A stretch of 64,000 nucleotides of DNA from Parasphingorhabdus flavimaris (lineage in GTDB: Bacteria; Pseudomonadota; Alphaproteobacteria; Sphingomonadales; Sphingomonadaceae), in the NCBI RefSeq assembly GCF_013371215.1, contig NZ_JABWMH010000004.1:124001-188000 (forward strand), given 5' to 3'. Of the stretch, positions 25,948 through 38,188 are shown piece after piece. Numbering within the stretch: the stretch's first letter is position 1; each line of letters starts with the position of its first letter. The translations under genes were made by a program, and so were the position numbers. The notes below the pieces were generated by a model. It was given only the letters and a program-made list of their open reading frames with translations. It was not told the origin of the DNA and did not search any database.

Positions 25948-26793
25948 TCATTCACTTGGAACGACTTTCTTGCTGTCTTCGGCGGCAACATGGCGCTCGT
26001 TGTAGAGATTGATAATCGCCGCGGCCGATTCCTCGATCGAACGGCGGGTCACATCGATCATCGACCAGCCGTTATCGGCAAACATCCGCTGGGCATAGAG
26101 CGTCTCGGCCTTGACCTTCTCTTCGTTGACATAGTCGGTTTCCGGGGCCTGGTTGAGCGACAGCAGGCGGTTGCGGCGCACCTGGACCAGACGCGACGCA
26201 CCGGTGATCAGCCCGACGACCAGCGGATTCTTCAAATGAAACAGGGCATCGGGAGGCGGCGATTCCGGCACGATCGGAATATTGGCGGTCTTGAACCCGC
26301 GATTGGCAAGATAGATGGATGTCGGGGTTTTCGAGGTCCGGGAAACACCGGCGAGCACGATATCCGCCTCTTCCCAATTTTCCCAGCCAATGCCGTCATC
26401 ATGCGCGATGGTGAACTGGATCGCCTCGACCCGGGCAAAATAGGCAGCGTCCAGAACATGCTGGCGGCCGGGCCGCGCCTTGGCTTCCTGTCCCAGCATA
26501 TTGGACAAGGCATCGGTCACCGTGTCCAGCGCAGGAACCGATGGCAGGCCCAGGTGCCGGCATTCGCGTTCGAGCTTGGCCCTGATATCGCGGTTAACGA
26601 TGGTGAAGATGACCAGTCCGGGATTATTCGCGACCTCGGCCAATATCCGGTTGAGATGCTTCTCCGAACGGACCATGGGCCAGAAATGCTTGATGATCTC
26701 GACGCCATCAAACTGGGCAAGCGCTGCCTTGGCGATATTTTCCAGTGTCTCGCCGGTGGAATCCGAAAGCAGATGGAGGTGGAGCCTGTTCAT
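25948..26793 (-). CDS. Phosphoenolpyruvate synthase / PPDK regulatory protein (DUF299)
   Basis: The protein has 281 residues. The nucleotide-binding loop GVSRTSKTPTS (149-159) is the signature of the DUF299/PpsR family, ADP- and phosphate-dependent bifunctional kinase/phosphorylases that switch PEP synthase or pyruvate phosphate dikinase off and on. LHLLSDSTGETLEN opens the protein. It is the first gene left of the origin and reads away from it. Its promoter must lie inside the oriC interval. Confidence 0.9.
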   Translation of the reverse strand: MNRLHLHLLSDSTGETLENIAKAALAQFDGVEIIKHFWPMVRSEKHLNRILAEVANNPGLVIFTIVNRDIRAKLERECRHLGLPSVPALDTVTDALSNMLGQEAKARPGRQHVLDAAYFARVEAIQFTIAHDDGIGWENWEEADIVLAGVSRTSKTPTSIYLANRGFKTANIPIVPESPPPDALFHLKNPLVVGLITGASRLVQVRRNRLLSLNQAPETDYVNEEKVKAETLYAQRMFADNGWSMIDVTRRSIEESAAAIINLYNERHVAAEDSKKVVPSE

Positions 26794-27076
26794 GGCCTAA
26801 GCTTTGTGATTTCACGGGGGATAAAGCAAGGGATGAAGTTGGGGATAAGTGGTTCGACCATATTCATCCCCGACTCCCGCCAATCTATCCACAGCAGGCC
26901 AACATTGACAGATTCCATCCACAGTCTGTGGATAGCGGGGATCGAAATTCGGAATCGGTTAAATTTTCATTAAGCCCCGCCTGTCAATCTGTTTGTATTT
27001 GCGGCGCTGGCGGGTTACCGCCTTTTCCACGCCCCATCATCAACAACAATTTTAAATTAAATACTTATATAATATA
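26794..27076. other. Predicted chromosomal replication origin (oriC)
   Basis: This 283-bp gap separates divergent ppsR and hemE. DnaA-box-like 9-mers, each one mismatch from TTATCCACA except where stated, are CTATCCACA at 26885-26893, CCATCCACA at 26915-26923 (two mismatches), CTATCCACA on the minus strand at 26927-26935, and TTATCCCCA on the minus strand at 26840-26848. The middle pair forms the inverted repeat ATCCACAGTCTGTGGAT. GANTC sites lie at 26872, 26911 and 26952. A CtrA-type site and an AT-rich tract follow on the hemE side. Gene strand switches here, and parAB with parS lies 7-11 kb away. In Caulobacter the origin also abuts hemE. The call is inference from these signals. Confidence 0.85.
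26959..26973. promoter_or_regulatory. CtrA-type binding site in the origin
   Basis: A perfect TTAA-N7-TTAA (TTAAATTTTCATTAA). In Caulobacter, CtrA bound to such sites in the origin blocks initiation in swarmer cells. The site lies 24 bp past the last DnaA-like box. Confidence 0.7.
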
Positions 27077-27078
27077 AT
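27049..27078. other. AT-rich tract, candidate DNA-unwinding element and hemE promoter
   Basis: 29 of 30 bases are A or T, in a G+C-rich setting, at the hemE edge of the origin. It contains TATAAT at 27068-27073, which could be a -10 box for hemE. If so, transcription would begin near 27080 and hemE translation would start at the ATG at 27095 instead of 27077. Confidence 0.6.
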
Positions 27079-28129
27079 GGATGACCGTCTTTCTATGCCG
27101 AACGGAACCGACTCTCAAAAAATTCTTCTTCAGACATTGCTCGGCAGGAAGACCGATCAAACGCCGGTCTGGCTCATGCGCCAGGCAGGGCGCTATTTGC
27201 CGGAATATCGCGAATTGCGCGCGCAAAAGGGCGGATTTCTCGAGCTTTGCTATGATGCCGAAGCGGCCGCCGAGGTCACATTGCAGCCGATCAAGCGGTT
27301 TGGCTTTGACGGCGCGATCCTGTTTTCCGACATTTTGATCGTCCCGCACGCGATGGGCCAGAAATTGTGGTTTGAGACCGGAGAGGGACCCCGGCTGGCA
27401 CCAAGGCTGGTCGATGCCGCTTTGTCGTCTCTAGAGGGTGCTCCCGAGCATTTTAAAGCCATATACGCCACCGTGCGCCGGGTCTCCGAACGGCTCGACG
27501 ACAAAACGACCTTCATGGGCTTTGCCGGCAGCCCCTGGACGGTCGCGACTTACATGCTCCACGGCCAGGGCAGCAAGGATCAGGGTGTCGCCCGGCGTTT
27601 TGCCTATCAGAACGAAGCGGCTTTCGCCGAACTGATCAACGCGATCATCGAAAATACCGTCGAATATCTGCTCGGCCAGATCGAGGCCGGCGTTGATGCG
27701 GTGCAGCTGTTCGACAGCTGGGCCGGATCGCTGTCACCGGCGCAGTTTGAAAAATGGGTAATTGCGCCCAATGCAGAGATCATAGCACGGCTGAAAGCGG
27801 TTCATCCCGATCTGCCGATCATCGGTTTTCCCAAGGGGGCCGGCGCGAAACTGGTCGCTTATGCCAATGAAACCGGTGCCGATGCAATTGGCCTGGATGA
27901 AACGGTCGATCCGGTCTGGGCCCATGAAAACCTGCCGGTCGATCTGCCGCTGCAGGGCAATCTCGATCCGCTGGCGCTGATCGCCGGCGGCGAAGCGCTG
28001 GAACAATCGGTCCGGCATATCCTGCAAGTCTTTGAAGACCGCCCGCATATCTTCAATCTCGGCCACGGTATTTTACCCGATACGCCCATTGAACATGTTG
28101 AAAAGCTGCTTACACTTGTCAGGCAATGA
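27077..28129 (+). CDS. hemE: Uroporphyrinogen decarboxylase
   Basis: The protein has 350 residues. The signature PVWLMRQAGRYLPEYRELR near residue 30 carries the essential arginines, followed by FSDILIVPHAMGQ, GFAGSPWTVATYML and the C-terminal GNLDPL and FNLGHGILPDTP. It decarboxylates the four acetate chains of uroporphyrinogen III in heme synthesis. No good ribosome site precedes 27077; ATG 27095 is a workable alternative. It adjoins oriC, and it overlaps hemJ by ATGA (28126-28129). Confidence 0.96.
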   Translation: MDDRLSMPNGTDSQKILLQTLLGRKTDQTPVWLMRQAGRYLPEYRELRAQKGGFLELCYDAEAAAEVTLQPIKRFGFDGAILFSDILIVPHAMGQKLWFETGEGPRLAPRLVDAALSSLEGAPEHFKAIYATVRRVSERLDDKTTFMGFAGSPWTVATYMLHGQGSKDQGVARRFAYQNEAAFAELINAIIENTVEYLLGQIEAGVDAVQLFDSWAGSLSPAQFEKWVIAPNAEIIARLKAVHPDLPIIGFPKGAGAKLVAYANETGADAIGLDETVDPVWAHENLPVDLPLQGNLDPLALIAGGEALEQSVRHILQVFEDRPHIFNLGHGILPDTPIEHVEKLLTLVRQ

Positions 28130-28569: not shown

Positions 28570-28579
28570 CCGGGCTCAG

Positions 28580-28608
28580 TTGACACAGAAATAACAAAGG
28601 CGTAATCA
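28580..28608 (+). promoter_or_regulatory. Candidate sigma-70-type promoter for rho
   Basis: TTGACA at 28580-28585, a 17-bp spacer, then TAATCA at 28603-28608. It lies in the 146-bp gap before rho, leaving a leader of about 100 nt, long enough for Rho autoregulation. Confidence 0.5.
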
Positions 28609-28715
28609 GGCGTCAAAGCCCGTCCGGGCGAAATTTTCATGTACATCGTCGACAGCCACCAGCTGCACACATGCAAAATAAAAATAGCTTCCCCAATTTA
28701 TCTGGATAAACCTCC

Positions 28716-33860: not shown

Positions 33861-33876
33861 TGTTCCACGTGGAACA
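33861..33876. other. parS centromere site 1
   Basis: A perfect 16-bp palindrome, TGTTCCACGTGGAACA, the consensus ParB-binding sequence. It lies one base past the mnmE stop, in the gap before mnmG. Confidence 0.92.
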
Positions 33877-33932
33877 GTGGCCATAACCGGTAGATTTTGA
33901 CCTGCAAACCGGCTTGGGCTATGGGCTGCGCC

Positions 33933-35798
33933 ATGAACCGAATATTTGACATCATCGTGGTGGGCGGAGGCCATGCCGGTTGCGAAGCAGCGGCTGTTGC
34001 CGCGCGCATGGGCGTATCGACCGCGCTGGTCAGTTTCACCCGCGACAGCATCGGGGCGATGTCGTGCAACCCGGCCATCGGTGGTCTCGGCAAGGGCCAT
34101 CTTGTCCGCGAAGTTGACGCGTTTGACGGGCTGATCGGCCGGGCTGCCGATGCTGCAGCGATCCACTATCGGATGCTCAATCTCTCCAAGGGCACCGCGG
34201 TGCAGGGGCCGAGGGTCCAGGCCGACCGCAAACTCTACAAGGCGGCGATCCACCGGATGCTCGACGCGCAGGACGATTTGACGATTATCGAGGGCGAAGT
34301 CGCCAGTCTGGTCATGACGGAATCACGGGTCAGCGGAATCGTCATGGCGGATGGATCAACAATCGAGGCGCAGGCCGTCATCCTCGCGACCGGCACATTC
34401 CTCAACGGGAAACTGTTCCGTGGCGAGGAAAGACTGGAGGGCGGCCGGACCGGCGAGGCTGCTTCGGTGTCGCTGGGTCAACAGATCCGGGATGCGGGAC
34501 TGCCGATTGCCCGTTTGAAAACCGGGACCCCGCCACGCATTGATGGCCGGACGATCGACTGGGCGGCGCTGCCCGAGCAACCCTCCGACGACGACGGATG
34601 GACGATGTCGCCGCTGTCAAAGGGACGGACGGTCGCGCAGACATTTTGTGCGGTCAGCCGGACCAATGCCGGGACTCACGAAATCATTCGCGGGTCGCTC
34701 GATCGCTCGCCATTGTTCAGTGGCGCGATCGATGCGCAGGGGCCACGCTATTGCCCGTCGATCGAGGACAAGATTCACCGCTTTTCCGATCGTGACTCGC
34801 ACCAGGTGTTTCTCGAACCCGAAGGCCTCGATACCAATCTCGTTTATCCGAACGGGATCAGCACCTCATTGCCCGCCGATGTTCAACTCGCCTTCGTGCG
34901 CAGTATGGATGGTCTCGAGAAGGCCGAAATCGTCGTTCCCGGCTATGCGGTGGAATATGATCATATCGATCCGCGGGCGCTAGATCGGTCGCTCAAGGTT
35001 CGTGATCTGGAAGGCCTCTATTGTGCCGGACAGATTAACGGGACCACTGGTTACGAAGAGGCTGCGGCGCAGGGCCTGATCGCCGGTATCGGCGCGGCTT
35101 GCCTTGTCCAGGGCAAGGACGCGCCGGCGCTCGATCGGGGCACCAGCTATATGGCGGTGATGATCGATGATCTGGTTTTGCAGGGCGTGACCGAACCCTA
35201 TCGCATGTTGACCGCCCGTGCCGAATATCGGTTGCGGTTGCGGGCGGACAATGCCTCCACCCGACTGACGCCGATTGCCCTGGCCCTTGGCTGTGTTGCC
35301 GGGGAGCGGGCCGACTGGTTTGGTGATCGCCAACAGGCGCGGGACGATATTTCCAAGGTTCTTGAAGCTGTCTATTCCAGCGAGGATCTGGTGAAGCTGG
35401 GGATCAATGTGCGCCGCGACGGAACCAAGCAGAGTCTGTTCCAGTGGCTGCGCTTTCCGAATATCGAGCTTGCTTCACTGGAAGGATTGGAAGCATGTTT
35501 GTCATCTGCCGAGCCCGACCTGTTGGCGGAGATTGAAGAAGACGCGCGCTACGCGCCTTATCTCGAGCGACAGGAATCCGAATTGCGCGACCTTCGTGCC
35601 AACGAGATGATCAGGCTTGGCGACGATATGGAATATGCTGCTATCGCCGGACTTTCCAACGAGATGGTAGAGCGGCTGGCAACGGCGCAGCCCGAATCCC
35701 TCGCCGCCGCTTCACGGATCAGGGGCATCACGCCTGCTGCCCTTGCGGCTATTCTTGTTCACGCCCGTCGTCGGGATTCAAGGAATATTGCTGCATGA
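33933..35798 (+). CDS. mnmG: tRNA uridine-5-carboxymethylaminomethyl(34) synthesis enzyme MnmG
   Basis: An FAD protein of 621 residues from [20 protein letters not shown] at 33933; codons upstream in frame (from 33897) are unlikely. The Rossmann loop GGGHAGCE is at 11-18, and the family block [23 protein letters not shown] and [12 protein letters not shown] are intact. [22 protein letters not shown]-type residues and the C-terminal MnmE-binding domain (LSNEMVERL...IPGITPAAL-like) complete it. It overlaps rsmG by ATGA (35795-35798). Confidence 0.97.
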
Positions 35799-36412
35799 CG
35801 GAAGAGGAAGCGCAAGCCTGGCTTCACGCAGAATATGATGTTTCACGTGAAACATGGCAGAGGCTGGAAACGTTTATTGCCTTGCTTCGCGATGAGATGC
35901 AGCGCCAGAACCTGATATCCCAGGCCAGTGCCGACAGCCTGTGGGCCCGTCATATCGTCGACAGTGCGCAGTTGCTGCGCTACGCGCCAGCACCCGAGAC
36001 CGGGCAGACCTGGCTGGACCTCGGTACCGGCGCGGGCTTTCCGGGAATCATCATCGCGATCCTGACGCCTTATCATGTTCATATGGTTGAATCGCGCAAG
36101 CGGCGGGTCGAGTTTCTGTCCCATGTGGTCGACCAGACCGGCATTGGGGATCATGCAAATGTGATTGGTGACCGGCTCGAGAATGTCGAGAGCTTTCCCG
36201 CAGATGTAATTAGCGCCCGTGCATTTGCTCCCTTGGAACGGCTCATCGCACTTTCACACCGTTTTTCCACAGAAAATACGGTTTGGCTCTTACCTAAAGG
36301 AAAAAATGCGGTAAGAGAACTTAAAGGCCTGTCGCCAAAACGGCAAAAAATGTTCCACGTGGAACATAGTTTGACCGATCCGAACGCCGGAATCTTGGTG
36401 GGAAAGGGCTAG
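35795..36412 (+). CDS. rsmG: 16S rRNA (guanine(527)-N7)-methyltransferase
   Basis: A SAM-dependent methyltransferase of 205 residues that makes m7G527 in 16S r[16 protein letters not shown] is the SAM loop, and [20 protein letters not shown] and [12 protein letters not shown] are family motifs. Two parS palindromes lie inside the coding frame. The first encodes VSRET (codons 15-19) and the second encodes FHVEH near the end, so the protein sequence partly reflects the centromere. It ends 28 bp before parA. Confidence 0.95.
35839..35854. other. parS centromere site 2
   Basis: A perfect TGTTTCACGTGAAACA palindrome inside the 5' end of rsmG. Confidence 0.94.
36351..36366. other. parS centromere site 3
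   Basis: A perfect TGTTCCACGTGGAACA palindrome inside the 3' end of rsmG, 74 bp before parA. It is identical to site 1. Confidence 0.93.
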
Positions 36413-36440: not shown

Positions 36441-37223
36441 ATGGTTCGTATCGCAATTGCCAATCAAAAAGGCGGCGTAGGCAAGACAACAACAGCAATT
36501 AACATGGCGACAGCGCTGGCCGCCACCGGCTGGAAAGTGCTGTTGATCGATCTCGATCCGCAAGGCAATGCCTCGACCGGCCTCGGCTTGACGCAGGGCG
36601 ACCGGGTTAACAGCAGCTATGATTTGCTGATCAACGACGTGCCACTGGCGGATTGTATCAACCAGACCAAAGTACCCGGTCTCGAAATCGTGCCGGCGAC
36701 CGTTGATCTTTCCGGCGCCGAAGTCGAGCTGGTCGGTTTCGAGGAGCGGACCCATCGTCTGAAAAAGGCGTTGGACAGCGCCGACAATGGTCGCTGGGAT
36801 ATCTGCCTGATCGATTGCCCGCCGTCGCTCGGCCTGCTCACGCTCAACGCGATGGTCGCCGTCGAATCGCTCATGGTTCCGCTGCAATGCGAGTTTTTCG
36901 CGCTCGAGGGGCTGAGCCAGCTGTTGCAGACTGTGGAACGGATTCGCGCCCGGTTCAATCGTCAGCTTTCGGTGATGGGCGTTGTCCTGACAATGTATGA
37001 CCGGCGCAACAAGCTGACCGAACAGGTGTCGGACGATGTTCGCGCCTGCCTTGGCGATGTCGTGTTCGACACCGTTATCCCCCGCAATGTTCGCCTTTCC
37101 GAGGCGCCAAGCCACGGTCTGCCTGCTTTGATCTATGATTATCGCTGCAGCGGGTCGGTTGCCTATATCGACCTCGCGCGCGAACTGATCGGACGCTTGC
37201 CGGACAGAAAGGTAGCCGCATAA
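36441..37223 (+). CDS. parA: Chromosome partitioning ATPase ParA
   Basis: A deviant-Walker ATPase of 260 residues. Walker A is KGGVGKTT (10-17), with Walker B-type LIDCPPSLGLLTLNAM and the DNA-binding surface including LEGLSQLLQTVERIR. ParA forms nucleotide-dependent DNA-bound patches that pull the ParB-parS complex to the new pole. It is coupled to parB by a TAATG overlap. The series runs from mnmE, and the parS cluster lies within 2.6 kb upstream. Confidence 0.96.
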   Translation: MVRIAIANQKGGVGKTTTAINMATALAATGWKVLLIDLDPQGNASTGLGLTQGDRVNSSYDLLINDVPLADCINQTKVPGLEIVPATVDLSGAEVELVGFEERTHRLKKALDSADNGRWDICLIDCPPSLGLLTLNAMVAVESLMVPLQCEFFALEGLSQLLQTVERIRARFNRQLSVMGVVLTMYDRRNKLTEQVSDDVRACLGDVVFDTVIPRNVRLSEAPSHGLPALIYDYRCSGSVAYIDLARELIGRLPDRKVAA

Positions 37224-38188
37224 TGGCAGAGGATAACGTGCAGGAAGACACCAGCAGGAAAGCACCAAAGCGGGCCACTGGCCTGGGCAGGGGACTCAAC
37301 AGCCTGTTCGGGGATATCCAGCGGGAAGAACCGATCAACACGTCCGCGCAGTCCGGCGGTGACAGCGACGGAGCGGAACAGGTCACCGGCACCGTGATCG
37401 ACGGATTGCGTTCGATCGCCGTGTCCGACATCCGGCCCAATCCCGATCAACCGCGTCAGACCTTCAATACCGACGCGCTCGACGAGCTGGCCGACAGCAT
37501 GCGTCAGCGTGGCGTGATTCAGCCGATTGTCGTGCGCCCGCATGGCAAGAACTTCCAGATTGTTGCCGGCGAGCGGCGCTGGAGAGCCGCACAACGCGCG
37601 CGTTTGCATCAGATTCCCGCCGTGGTGCGCAATCTCAGCGATGAAGAAACCCTGGAAATCGCGATCGTCGAGAATGTCCAGCGGAAGGACCTCAACGCCA
37701 TCGAAGAGGCGGAGGCTTATGCAAAGCTGAGTCAGGATTTCGGGCATAGCCAGTCGCGCCTGGCCGAGGTTGTCGGCAAATCGCGGAGCCATATTGCCAA
37801 TCTCATGCGCTTGCTCGAACTGCCGGACAGCGTGAAGACGCTTGTGGTCGACGAGAAACTGACGATGGGCCACGCGCGTGCGCTGATCAATGCACCCAAT
37901 GCCGACGAACTGGCACCGCAAATCGTCAAACAGGGCATGTCGGTCCGGGACGTCGAGCGGATGGTTCGCAAAGCGCTGGCGGGGGACAAGCCCGTATCGG
38001 CGAAAAAACAGGCTTTGATGTCGGAGACCGACGCCGACATCCAGGCGCTGGAAACGCATCTCGGTGATCTGCTTGGTTTGAAAGTGAATATCCAGTCGAA
38101 CGGGCAGGGCGGAGCGATGTCGATCGAATATGCGAATCTCGACCAGCTCGATCTGATTTGCCAGCGGCTGACCGGGGAGCATATCTAG
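37223..38188 (+). CDS. parB: Chromosome partitioning protein ParB
   Basis: The protein has 321 residues. The ParA-stimulating N-terminus is GLGRGLNSLFGD (20-31). The CTP-binding/ParB domain has IRPNPDQPRQTF, GERRWRA (from 116) and ENVQRKDLNAIEEAEAY, and the helix-turn-helix KSRSHIANLMRLLELP recognises parS. A short C-terminal dimerisation domain ends in NLDQLDLICQRL. ParB loads and slides from parS. The ATG shares its first base with the parA stop (TAATG). Confidence 0.96.
   Translation: MAEDNVQEDTSRKAPKRATGLGRGLNSLFGDIQREEPINTSAQSGGDSDGAEQVTGTVIDGLRSIAVSDIRPNPDQPRQTFNTDALDELADSMRQRGVIQPIVVRPHGKNFQIVAGERRWRAAQRARLHQIPAVVRNLSDEETLEIAIVENVQRKDLNAIEEAEAYAKLSQDFGHSQSRLAEVVGKSRSHIANLMRLLELPDSVKTLVVDEKLTMGHARALINAPNADELAPQIVKQGMSVRDVERMVRKALAGDKPVSAKKQALMSETDADIQALETHLGDLLGLKVNIQSNGQGGAMSIEYANLDQLDLICQRLTGEHI

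Follow-up and report, generated by a model that had tools for sequence, protein, structure and literature searches.

The window, by which we mean the whole stretch of 64 kb that was analysed, on contig C4 of its genome, contains a 283-bp intergenic gap (26794..27076) from which the genes on both sides read away, as the earlier note had described. The left flank is formed by ppsR on the minus strand (25948..26793), encoding a Kinase-PPPase of the COG1806 type (PF03618, E 7.3e-92, a domain that we take to be the same as COG1806), and the right flank by hemE on the plus strand (27077..28129; URO-D, PF01208, E 2.9e-116). A gap between hemE and a COG1806 gene is the flanking pair named among the criteria in the available text of PMC1914354. 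Judged by their domains, the farther neighbours are Maf and shikimate dehydrogenase on the left and UPF0093 and Rho, then MnmE, MnmG, ParA and ParB on the right. The nearest named match of the HemE protein, with 98% identity, belongs to an uncultured Sphingomonadaceae bacterium, followed by Sphingorhabdus and Parasphingorhabdus records with 84–93% identity. Since the assigned start of hemE abuts an AT-rich tract and the PF01208 match begins at residue 14, the true start may be located slightly downstream, and the gap would then be slightly longer (27077–27115). A structured RNA was rejected for this region, as Rfam gave no match at the gathering score within positions 26000–28000.

Right of the gap, the genes parA (36441..37223, plus strand; PF13614, E 4.4e-60; PF01656, E 7.5e-33) and parB (37223..38188, plus strand; PF02195, E 4.6e-37; PF17762, E 1.7e-32) are accompanied by three parS sites (33862..33875, 35840..35853 and 36352..36365) that match GTTYCACGTGRAAC. 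These are the only three matches to that sequence in the whole genome, all at 33862–36365 of the window and 6.8–9.3 kb right of the gap, in agreement with the claim of the earlier note that parAB and three parS sites lie within 11 kb. It was also correct that the window holds no dnaA gene; the best Bac_DnaA match sits on another contig, C3.

DnaA boxes, conservation and the AT-rich tract

Potential DnaA boxes were scored by their mismatches against TTATCCACA, a sequence without a perfect copy in the 64 kb window. Three boxes with one mismatch are found in the gap, a quarter of the 12 such sites in the window: the DnaA-box-like TTATCCCCA at 26840..26848 on the minus strand, and CTATCCACA both at 26885..26893 on the plus strand and at 26927..26935 on the minus strand. 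Four more appear with two mismatches, at 26816 on the minus strand and at 26915, 27023 and 27037 on the plus strand. The DnaA-box-like 9-mers of the earlier note are hence present, but their count of four is not fixed and depends on the cut-off, which gives three if one mismatch is allowed and seven if two are. The weaker box CCATCCACA (26915..26923, plus strand) forms the left arm of an inverted pair with the box at 26927 as its right arm, and the weak, DnaA-box-like TTTTCCACG (27023..27031, plus strand) is positioned beside a triplet run and the AT-rich tract.

With the pattern YTATCCACA, which was picked after CTATCCACA had been seen in the gap, 27 sites were counted in the own genome (3.35 Mb, 8 contigs), two of them in the gap at C4:150885 and C4:150927. 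The gap is the sole place in that genome with two such sites at most 300 bp apart, and about 0.06 such pairs would be expected by calculation. The complete genome of a congener, G089, has 22 sites, and its sole close pair is again found in the ppsR–hemE gap, where both sites are perfect copies of TTATCCACA. For one-mismatch boxes the uniqueness of the cluster holds within samples: in 1.19 Mb, of which 394 kb come from the own genome and 800 kb from G089, three such boxes per 300 bp occur in the ppsR–hemE gap alone.

Relatives of the locus were compared by means of 108 hemE loci (L004–L111), six of which were left out (five without ppsR found and one with ppsR about 3 kb away). The 102 gaps kept comprise 100 distinct ones: 24 of congeners (HemE identity of at least 80%, the window included), 71 of other family members (60–80%) and five farther ones, these groups being defined by identity and not by named taxonomy. 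The mean number of one-mismatch boxes per gap is 3.2 in the 24 congeners and 2.8 in the 71 other family members, compared to 0.1 in gaps shuffled, like those used below for GANTC, Q and trios, in 2-base blocks. Four congeners (L005, L035, L038 and L045) have a perfect TTATCCACA at the place of the box at 26840, the sequence TGTGGATA at the right arm of the inverted pair is invariant in all 24, and the pair 26915/26927 is kept in 22 of the 24 congeners and 17 of the 71 other family members. In a search of the whole class, a HemE match was obtained in 148 of 190 genomes, and the best-scoring 27 loci outside the family (L174–L200) were examined. A divergent ppsR–hemE gap exists in 24 of these 27 alphaproteobacterial loci; 15 carry at least two boxes upstream of hemE, and seven have none at one mismatch.

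Of the 283 bases of the gap, 106 do not vary among the 24 congeners, and they include uninterrupted runs of 19 and 16 bp. The former, block K (GGATAAAGCAAGGGATGAA; 26819..26837, plus strand), is the longest invariant run of the gap (24 of 24 rows, including the window), lies near the start of ppsR and shows one to five mismatches in many other family members; the latter is element Q, described below. The neighbouring hemJ–rho gap was taken as a control at 19 of the 24 loci, two loci, whose gaps measure 318 and 597 bp, having been left out. Counted per window base over the same 19 loci, 40% of the ppsR–hemE gap is invariant versus 36% of the hemJ–rho gap, with longest runs of 19 and 15 bp, respectively, and the stronger contrast of an alignment of 21 loci (33% versus 8%) is inflated by the two overlong ones. 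Because the hemJ–rho gap is nearly equal, the ppsR–hemE gap does not stand out by its conservation within the genus alone, and its distinctive trait is its content, that is, the DnaA boxes. The hemJ–rho gap (28570–28715), strongly conserved in these 19 congeners, is perhaps a rho leader.

The GC content of the ppsR–hemE gap is 45.6%, compared to about 59% for the whole 64 kb window, and this above-average AT content is accompanied by the AT-rich edge that the earlier note had pointed out. It corresponds to a tract at 27048..27078, probably an unwinding element, which runs into the assigned hemE start; at the equivalent place all 24 congeners have 82–89% AT over 28 bp. Beside it lies the triplet run ATCATCAACAACAA (27036..27049, plus strand), at a place where several other family members have DnaA-trio-like CTA/ATC/CAT triplets; in L013, L024, L076 and L087 such runs stand between a box or a GC-rich spacer and the AT-rich tract. 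The formal DnaA-trio rule, by which at least three trios with a fixed middle A must lie no more than 16 bp from a DnaA box, finds matches in 34 of 71 family gaps (10% of shuffles; 10 of 71 in the opposite orientation) and in 15 of 24 congeners (17% of shuffles; 3 of 24 in the opposite orientation). The run of the window, ATC-ATC-AAC-AAC, has the required middle base in two triplets, and a formal match elsewhere is doubtful. Strict DnaA-trios were rejected for the window, the rule giving no match at the expected place, and the genus of the window may possess a degenerate DnaA-trio version, with a run partly of that type.

Strand asymmetry and the position of the origin

The genome of G089 (3.48 Mb) was sampled as 40 stretches of 20 kb, its hemE being located at 2.334 Mb. 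The third-position skew is negative in 12 of the 14 tracts at 2.02–2.34 Mb and positive in 8 of the 9 tracts at 2.34–2.72 Mb, and another skew switch is seen near 0.7–0.9 Mb. The same halves emerge, with several exceptions, from raw GC skew and from the octamer GGGNAGGG, presumably strand-polar; left of hemE, the raw skew is slightly positive in two tracts at 2.28–2.32 Mb. When the third-position GC skew was accumulated over 260 contiguous kb (2.10–2.36 Mb) with 210 ORFs, 190 to the left and 20 to the right (26 kb right of the gap), its minimum fell on position 2,333,806, the last base before the ppsR–hemE gap, and genes on both strands shift the skew in one direction across the gap. Coarse samples of two other genera, 20 from each genome, roughly agree with an origin at hemE. 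For G127, whose hemE lies at 776 kb, the sign of the raw skew changes from the sample at 745 kb to that at 785 kb, and the octamers there are too few to be informative. In G094 the octamer polarity turns at 3.45–3.53 Mb, about 20–120 kb from hemE at 3.57 Mb, and several samples past the octamer turn still have a raw skew close to zero.

The picture on the own contig is blurred. The skew of C4 is negative up to 70 kb, slightly positive at 75–124 kb, near zero directly before the gap and positive beyond it, so that its turn is found about 75 kb left of the gap; within the window alone, a weak third-position minimum occurs at contig position 130871, compared to 150935 for the gap. Thus, the sign change of the skew at the gap, expected by the earlier note, is present in the complete congener, where the minimum lies at the gap, but not clearly on C4. 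An inversion was rejected as the source of this blur, as C4 is collinear with G089 without any inversion in the compared parts. The segment at 76.5–90 kb of C4 is absent from the matching place in G089 and partly matches G089 at 1.71 Mb; this may account for some of the blur, though not for that at 100–124 kb. This segment, left of the window, probably represents an insertion or a move near the origin.

The skew minimum of G089, the DnaA-box cluster, the parS cluster and the flanking genes agree with each other and support the reading of the earlier note, by which this is a chromosomal origin: the ppsR–hemE gap is almost certainly the oriC of the main chromosome. The evidence is sequence-based throughout, and counting against this reading are the turn of the C4 skew left of the gap, the slightly positive raw skew of two G089 tracts left of hemE, the lack of a perfect TTATCCACA in the window, a conservation hardly above that of the hemJ–rho gap and the seven of 27 non-family loci without a one-mismatch box. 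That the gap is instead only a regulatory region shared by ppsR and hemE, at which DnaA acts as a transcription factor, and that replication starts elsewhere, we consider highly improbable in view of the G089 skew minimum at the gap, the box cluster that is unique in two genomes and the parS sites alongside. Such a region would nevertheless be consistent with a sigma70-like TTTAAA-16-TATAAT at 27051–27078 (0.7 expected by chance), with element Q, whose 28 exact copies at hemE point in the reading direction of that gene, with the genus conservation little above that of the hemJ–rho gap, and with the regulation of genes by DnaA in Caulobacter mentioned in the available text of PMC4468827. Least probable is an origin on C4 itself but some 75 kb left of the gap, as the sign change of the C4 GC skew between 70 and 95 kb might suggest, or one at dnaA on contig C3. 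The 10 kb around the C3 dnaA match contain a single one-mismatch box, no other 300 bp with three boxes exist in the sampled part of C4, and the collinearity of C4 with G089, with the misplaced segment as a possible cause of part of the blur, argues against a displaced origin as well.

Element Q and the sites preceding it

Element Q (TGTCAATCTGTTTGTA; 26982..26997, plus strand) is the window's copy of a family-restricted 15-bp element that reads GTCAANCTGTTGGCA in other family members and GTCAATCTGTTTGTA in the window. In the 24 congeners it is invariant as a run of 16 bp. With up to three mismatches to GTCAAGCTGTTGGCA, it was detected in 46 of the 71 gaps of other family members, 42 of these 46 having none or one, and 25 gaps are without it; shuffled gaps gave three mismatches in 7 of 1420 cases and never fewer. 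The distance of Q from the inner DnaA box is nearly constant: its GTCAA starts 56 bp after the TGTGGAT start at 26927, the same spacing of 56 bp is found in all 24 congeners, and in 29 of the 33 family gaps that have TGTGGAT, Q starts 55–57 bp after the nearest upstream start of that motif (13 of the 46 gaps with Q are without TGTGGAT). The exact pattern occurs once each in 29 of 149 family genomes, with the reversed control in three, and 28 of the 29 copies, with G028 as the exception, are located at most 150 bp upstream of a HemE match and on the HemE strand. Use of Q as a genome-wide site was rejected, because GTCAANCTGTTNG and its reversed control have equal counts in the own genome, three each. 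A class-wide element was rejected as well, since GTCAANCTGTTGGCA occurs in three of 289 genomes and so does the reversed control; one of the three belongs to the family and has it at hemE, and for the other two neither hemE nor ppsR is present in the 3 kb examined. At the 27 non-family hemE loci Q was not found, the best matches having four to seven mismatches, which is the level of shuffles.

Upstream of Q, the CtrA-type site reported by the earlier note, TTAAATTTTCATTAA (26959..26973; TTAA-N7-TTAA), is present as claimed but poorly conserved, and it is no constant part of the origin. It is one of 12 such sites in the own genome and the only one in the gap, so that several conserved TTAA-N7-TTAA sites, as in an origin of the Cori type, are not seen. 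The strict site is found in 8 of 24 congeners (1% of shuffles), each time 24 bp before Q, and in 2 of 71 other family members; the loose form occurs in 9 of 24 and 5 of 71, respectively. As a general claim, a CtrA-controlled origin was therefore rejected. Part of the genus may have CtrA control, which, to judge from the strict site in only two of the 71 other family members, is no family trait. In its available text, one review (PMC4468827) limits the CtrA-type sites seen in origins to Caulobacter and perhaps Rickettsia, and the loss of CtrA had no negative effect on growth or viability of Sphingomonas melonis according to the available text of PMC8116508.

The clustering of GANTC sites held up on counting: three of them, at 26872, 26911 and 26952, stand against 0.75 expected from the 169 in 64 kb (P about 0.04, calculated). 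The methylation-type site GAATC at 26952..26956 has a near-fixed position before Q, as all 24 congeners have a GANTC 31 bp before it, and the 46 family gaps with Q have one 30 bp before it at about 80% per base. Per gap, GANTC sites number 2.25 in congeners (1.1 in shuffles), 3.9 in other family members (1.3) and 0.8 in the five farther gaps (1.4).

The gap contains no match to WATCAANNNNTTR, the E. coli IHF consensus. Compared by eye with the IHF site WATCAN5WTR in the available text of PMC1914354, the family Q has one mismatch and the Q of the window two. The family Q ends in TTGGCA, which resembles a -35 element, and a near-invariant TAA follows 17 bp on; neither an IHF site nor a -35 element, however, explains the whole conserved stretch. 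Quite possibly, the origin is correctly placed and Q is a part of the conserved hemE promoter (its -35 region) and no origin element. This ordinary promoter part is the stronger rival for Q because the hemJ–rho gap, an adjoining gene-leader gap that is no origin, is about as conserved within the genus and has an invariant run of 15; the TTGGCA end with its TAA and the constant orientation point in the same direction. It accounts less well for a conserved part that begins 9 bp before TTGGCA, for the retention of Q in the genus, where the hexamer TTTGTA would be a poor -35, and for the distance of 55–57 bp to the DnaA box in 29 of the 33 family gaps with TGTGGAT among the 46 with Q. That Q is a lineage-specific control element of the Sphingomonadaceae origin, at a set distance from the inner DnaA box and the near-fixed GANTC, and bound by a candidate origin protein that would take over the role of CtrA in Caulobacter, is an unlikely reading that we put forward tentatively. 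A description of Q was not found in the available text of the literature searched, supplements not covered.

Comparison with known origins and a possible mechanism

Cori of Caulobacter crescentus and oriC of Rickettsia prowazekii lie between hemE and the COG1806 gene, as do the origins of Wolbachia relatives, in the available text of PMC1914354, which bears out the remark of the earlier note that the Caulobacter origin adjoins hemE. The gap shares with the first two its flanking genes, DnaA boxes, an AT-rich region and a CtrA-type site, but Cori has five CtrA sites according to the same text, whereas the gap has one, strict in a third of the congeners. In Hyphomonas, the available part of PMC6650430 describes a marker frequency peak close to hemE and, as at the gap, parAB near hemE. 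The available text of PMC4741004 places oriC at hemE in Sphingopyxis and in most Sphingomonadaceae of DoriC; Sphingopyxis granuli TFA, of a different genus from that of the window, and the DoriC Sphingomonadaceae conserve gene order, DnaA boxes and an unwinding element, like the gap. The order of weak box, GC-rich spacer, triplet run and AT-rich tract is also that of the basal unwinding system, which, however, requires a fixed middle base that the run of the window has in two triplets only. An origin at hemE is therefore already published for sphingomonads and the place of the gap was predictable from print. No experimental mapping of a sphingomonad origin was found in the available text of the literature searched, supplements not covered. 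What is new, as a small lead, is element Q together with the GANTC that precedes it.

In the mechanism that may be envisaged from known oriCs, DnaA would bind the box at 26885 and the inverted pair 26915/26927, sites that are themselves seen, and a DnaA filament would reach the weak box at 27023 and open the AT-rich tract at 27048–27078 beside hemE. The helicase would be loaded at the opened tract and two forks would leave, while the three parS sites 6.8–9.3 kb to the right would let ParAB segregate the new origins. Q and the preceding GANTC may belong to a control region, in which Q might bend the DNA as an IHF-like site, bind a candidate protein or form part of the hemE promoter, and GANTC might report the methylation state once the fork has passed.

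The origin of a draft genome can in this way be placed at base level, the ppsR–hemE rule holds in the genus, and the skew evidence is exact to the gene in one complete congener. Q, the preceding GANTC and block K make up a short list of elements that could be altered singly to learn about the timing of replication in sphingomonads. As the earlier note stated, a search near dnaA would miss the site, dnaA being on C3, yet hemE has been published as an indicator gene of alphaproteobacterial origins (available texts of PMC4741004 and PMC1914354), and a location of dnaA near ori is reportedly not conserved in Sphingomonadales (available text of PMC8116508). The dnaA gene of the own genome lies at 182–183.4 kb of C3 (L148), with a single TTATCCACA nearby at C3:183412, which perhaps serves autoregulation.
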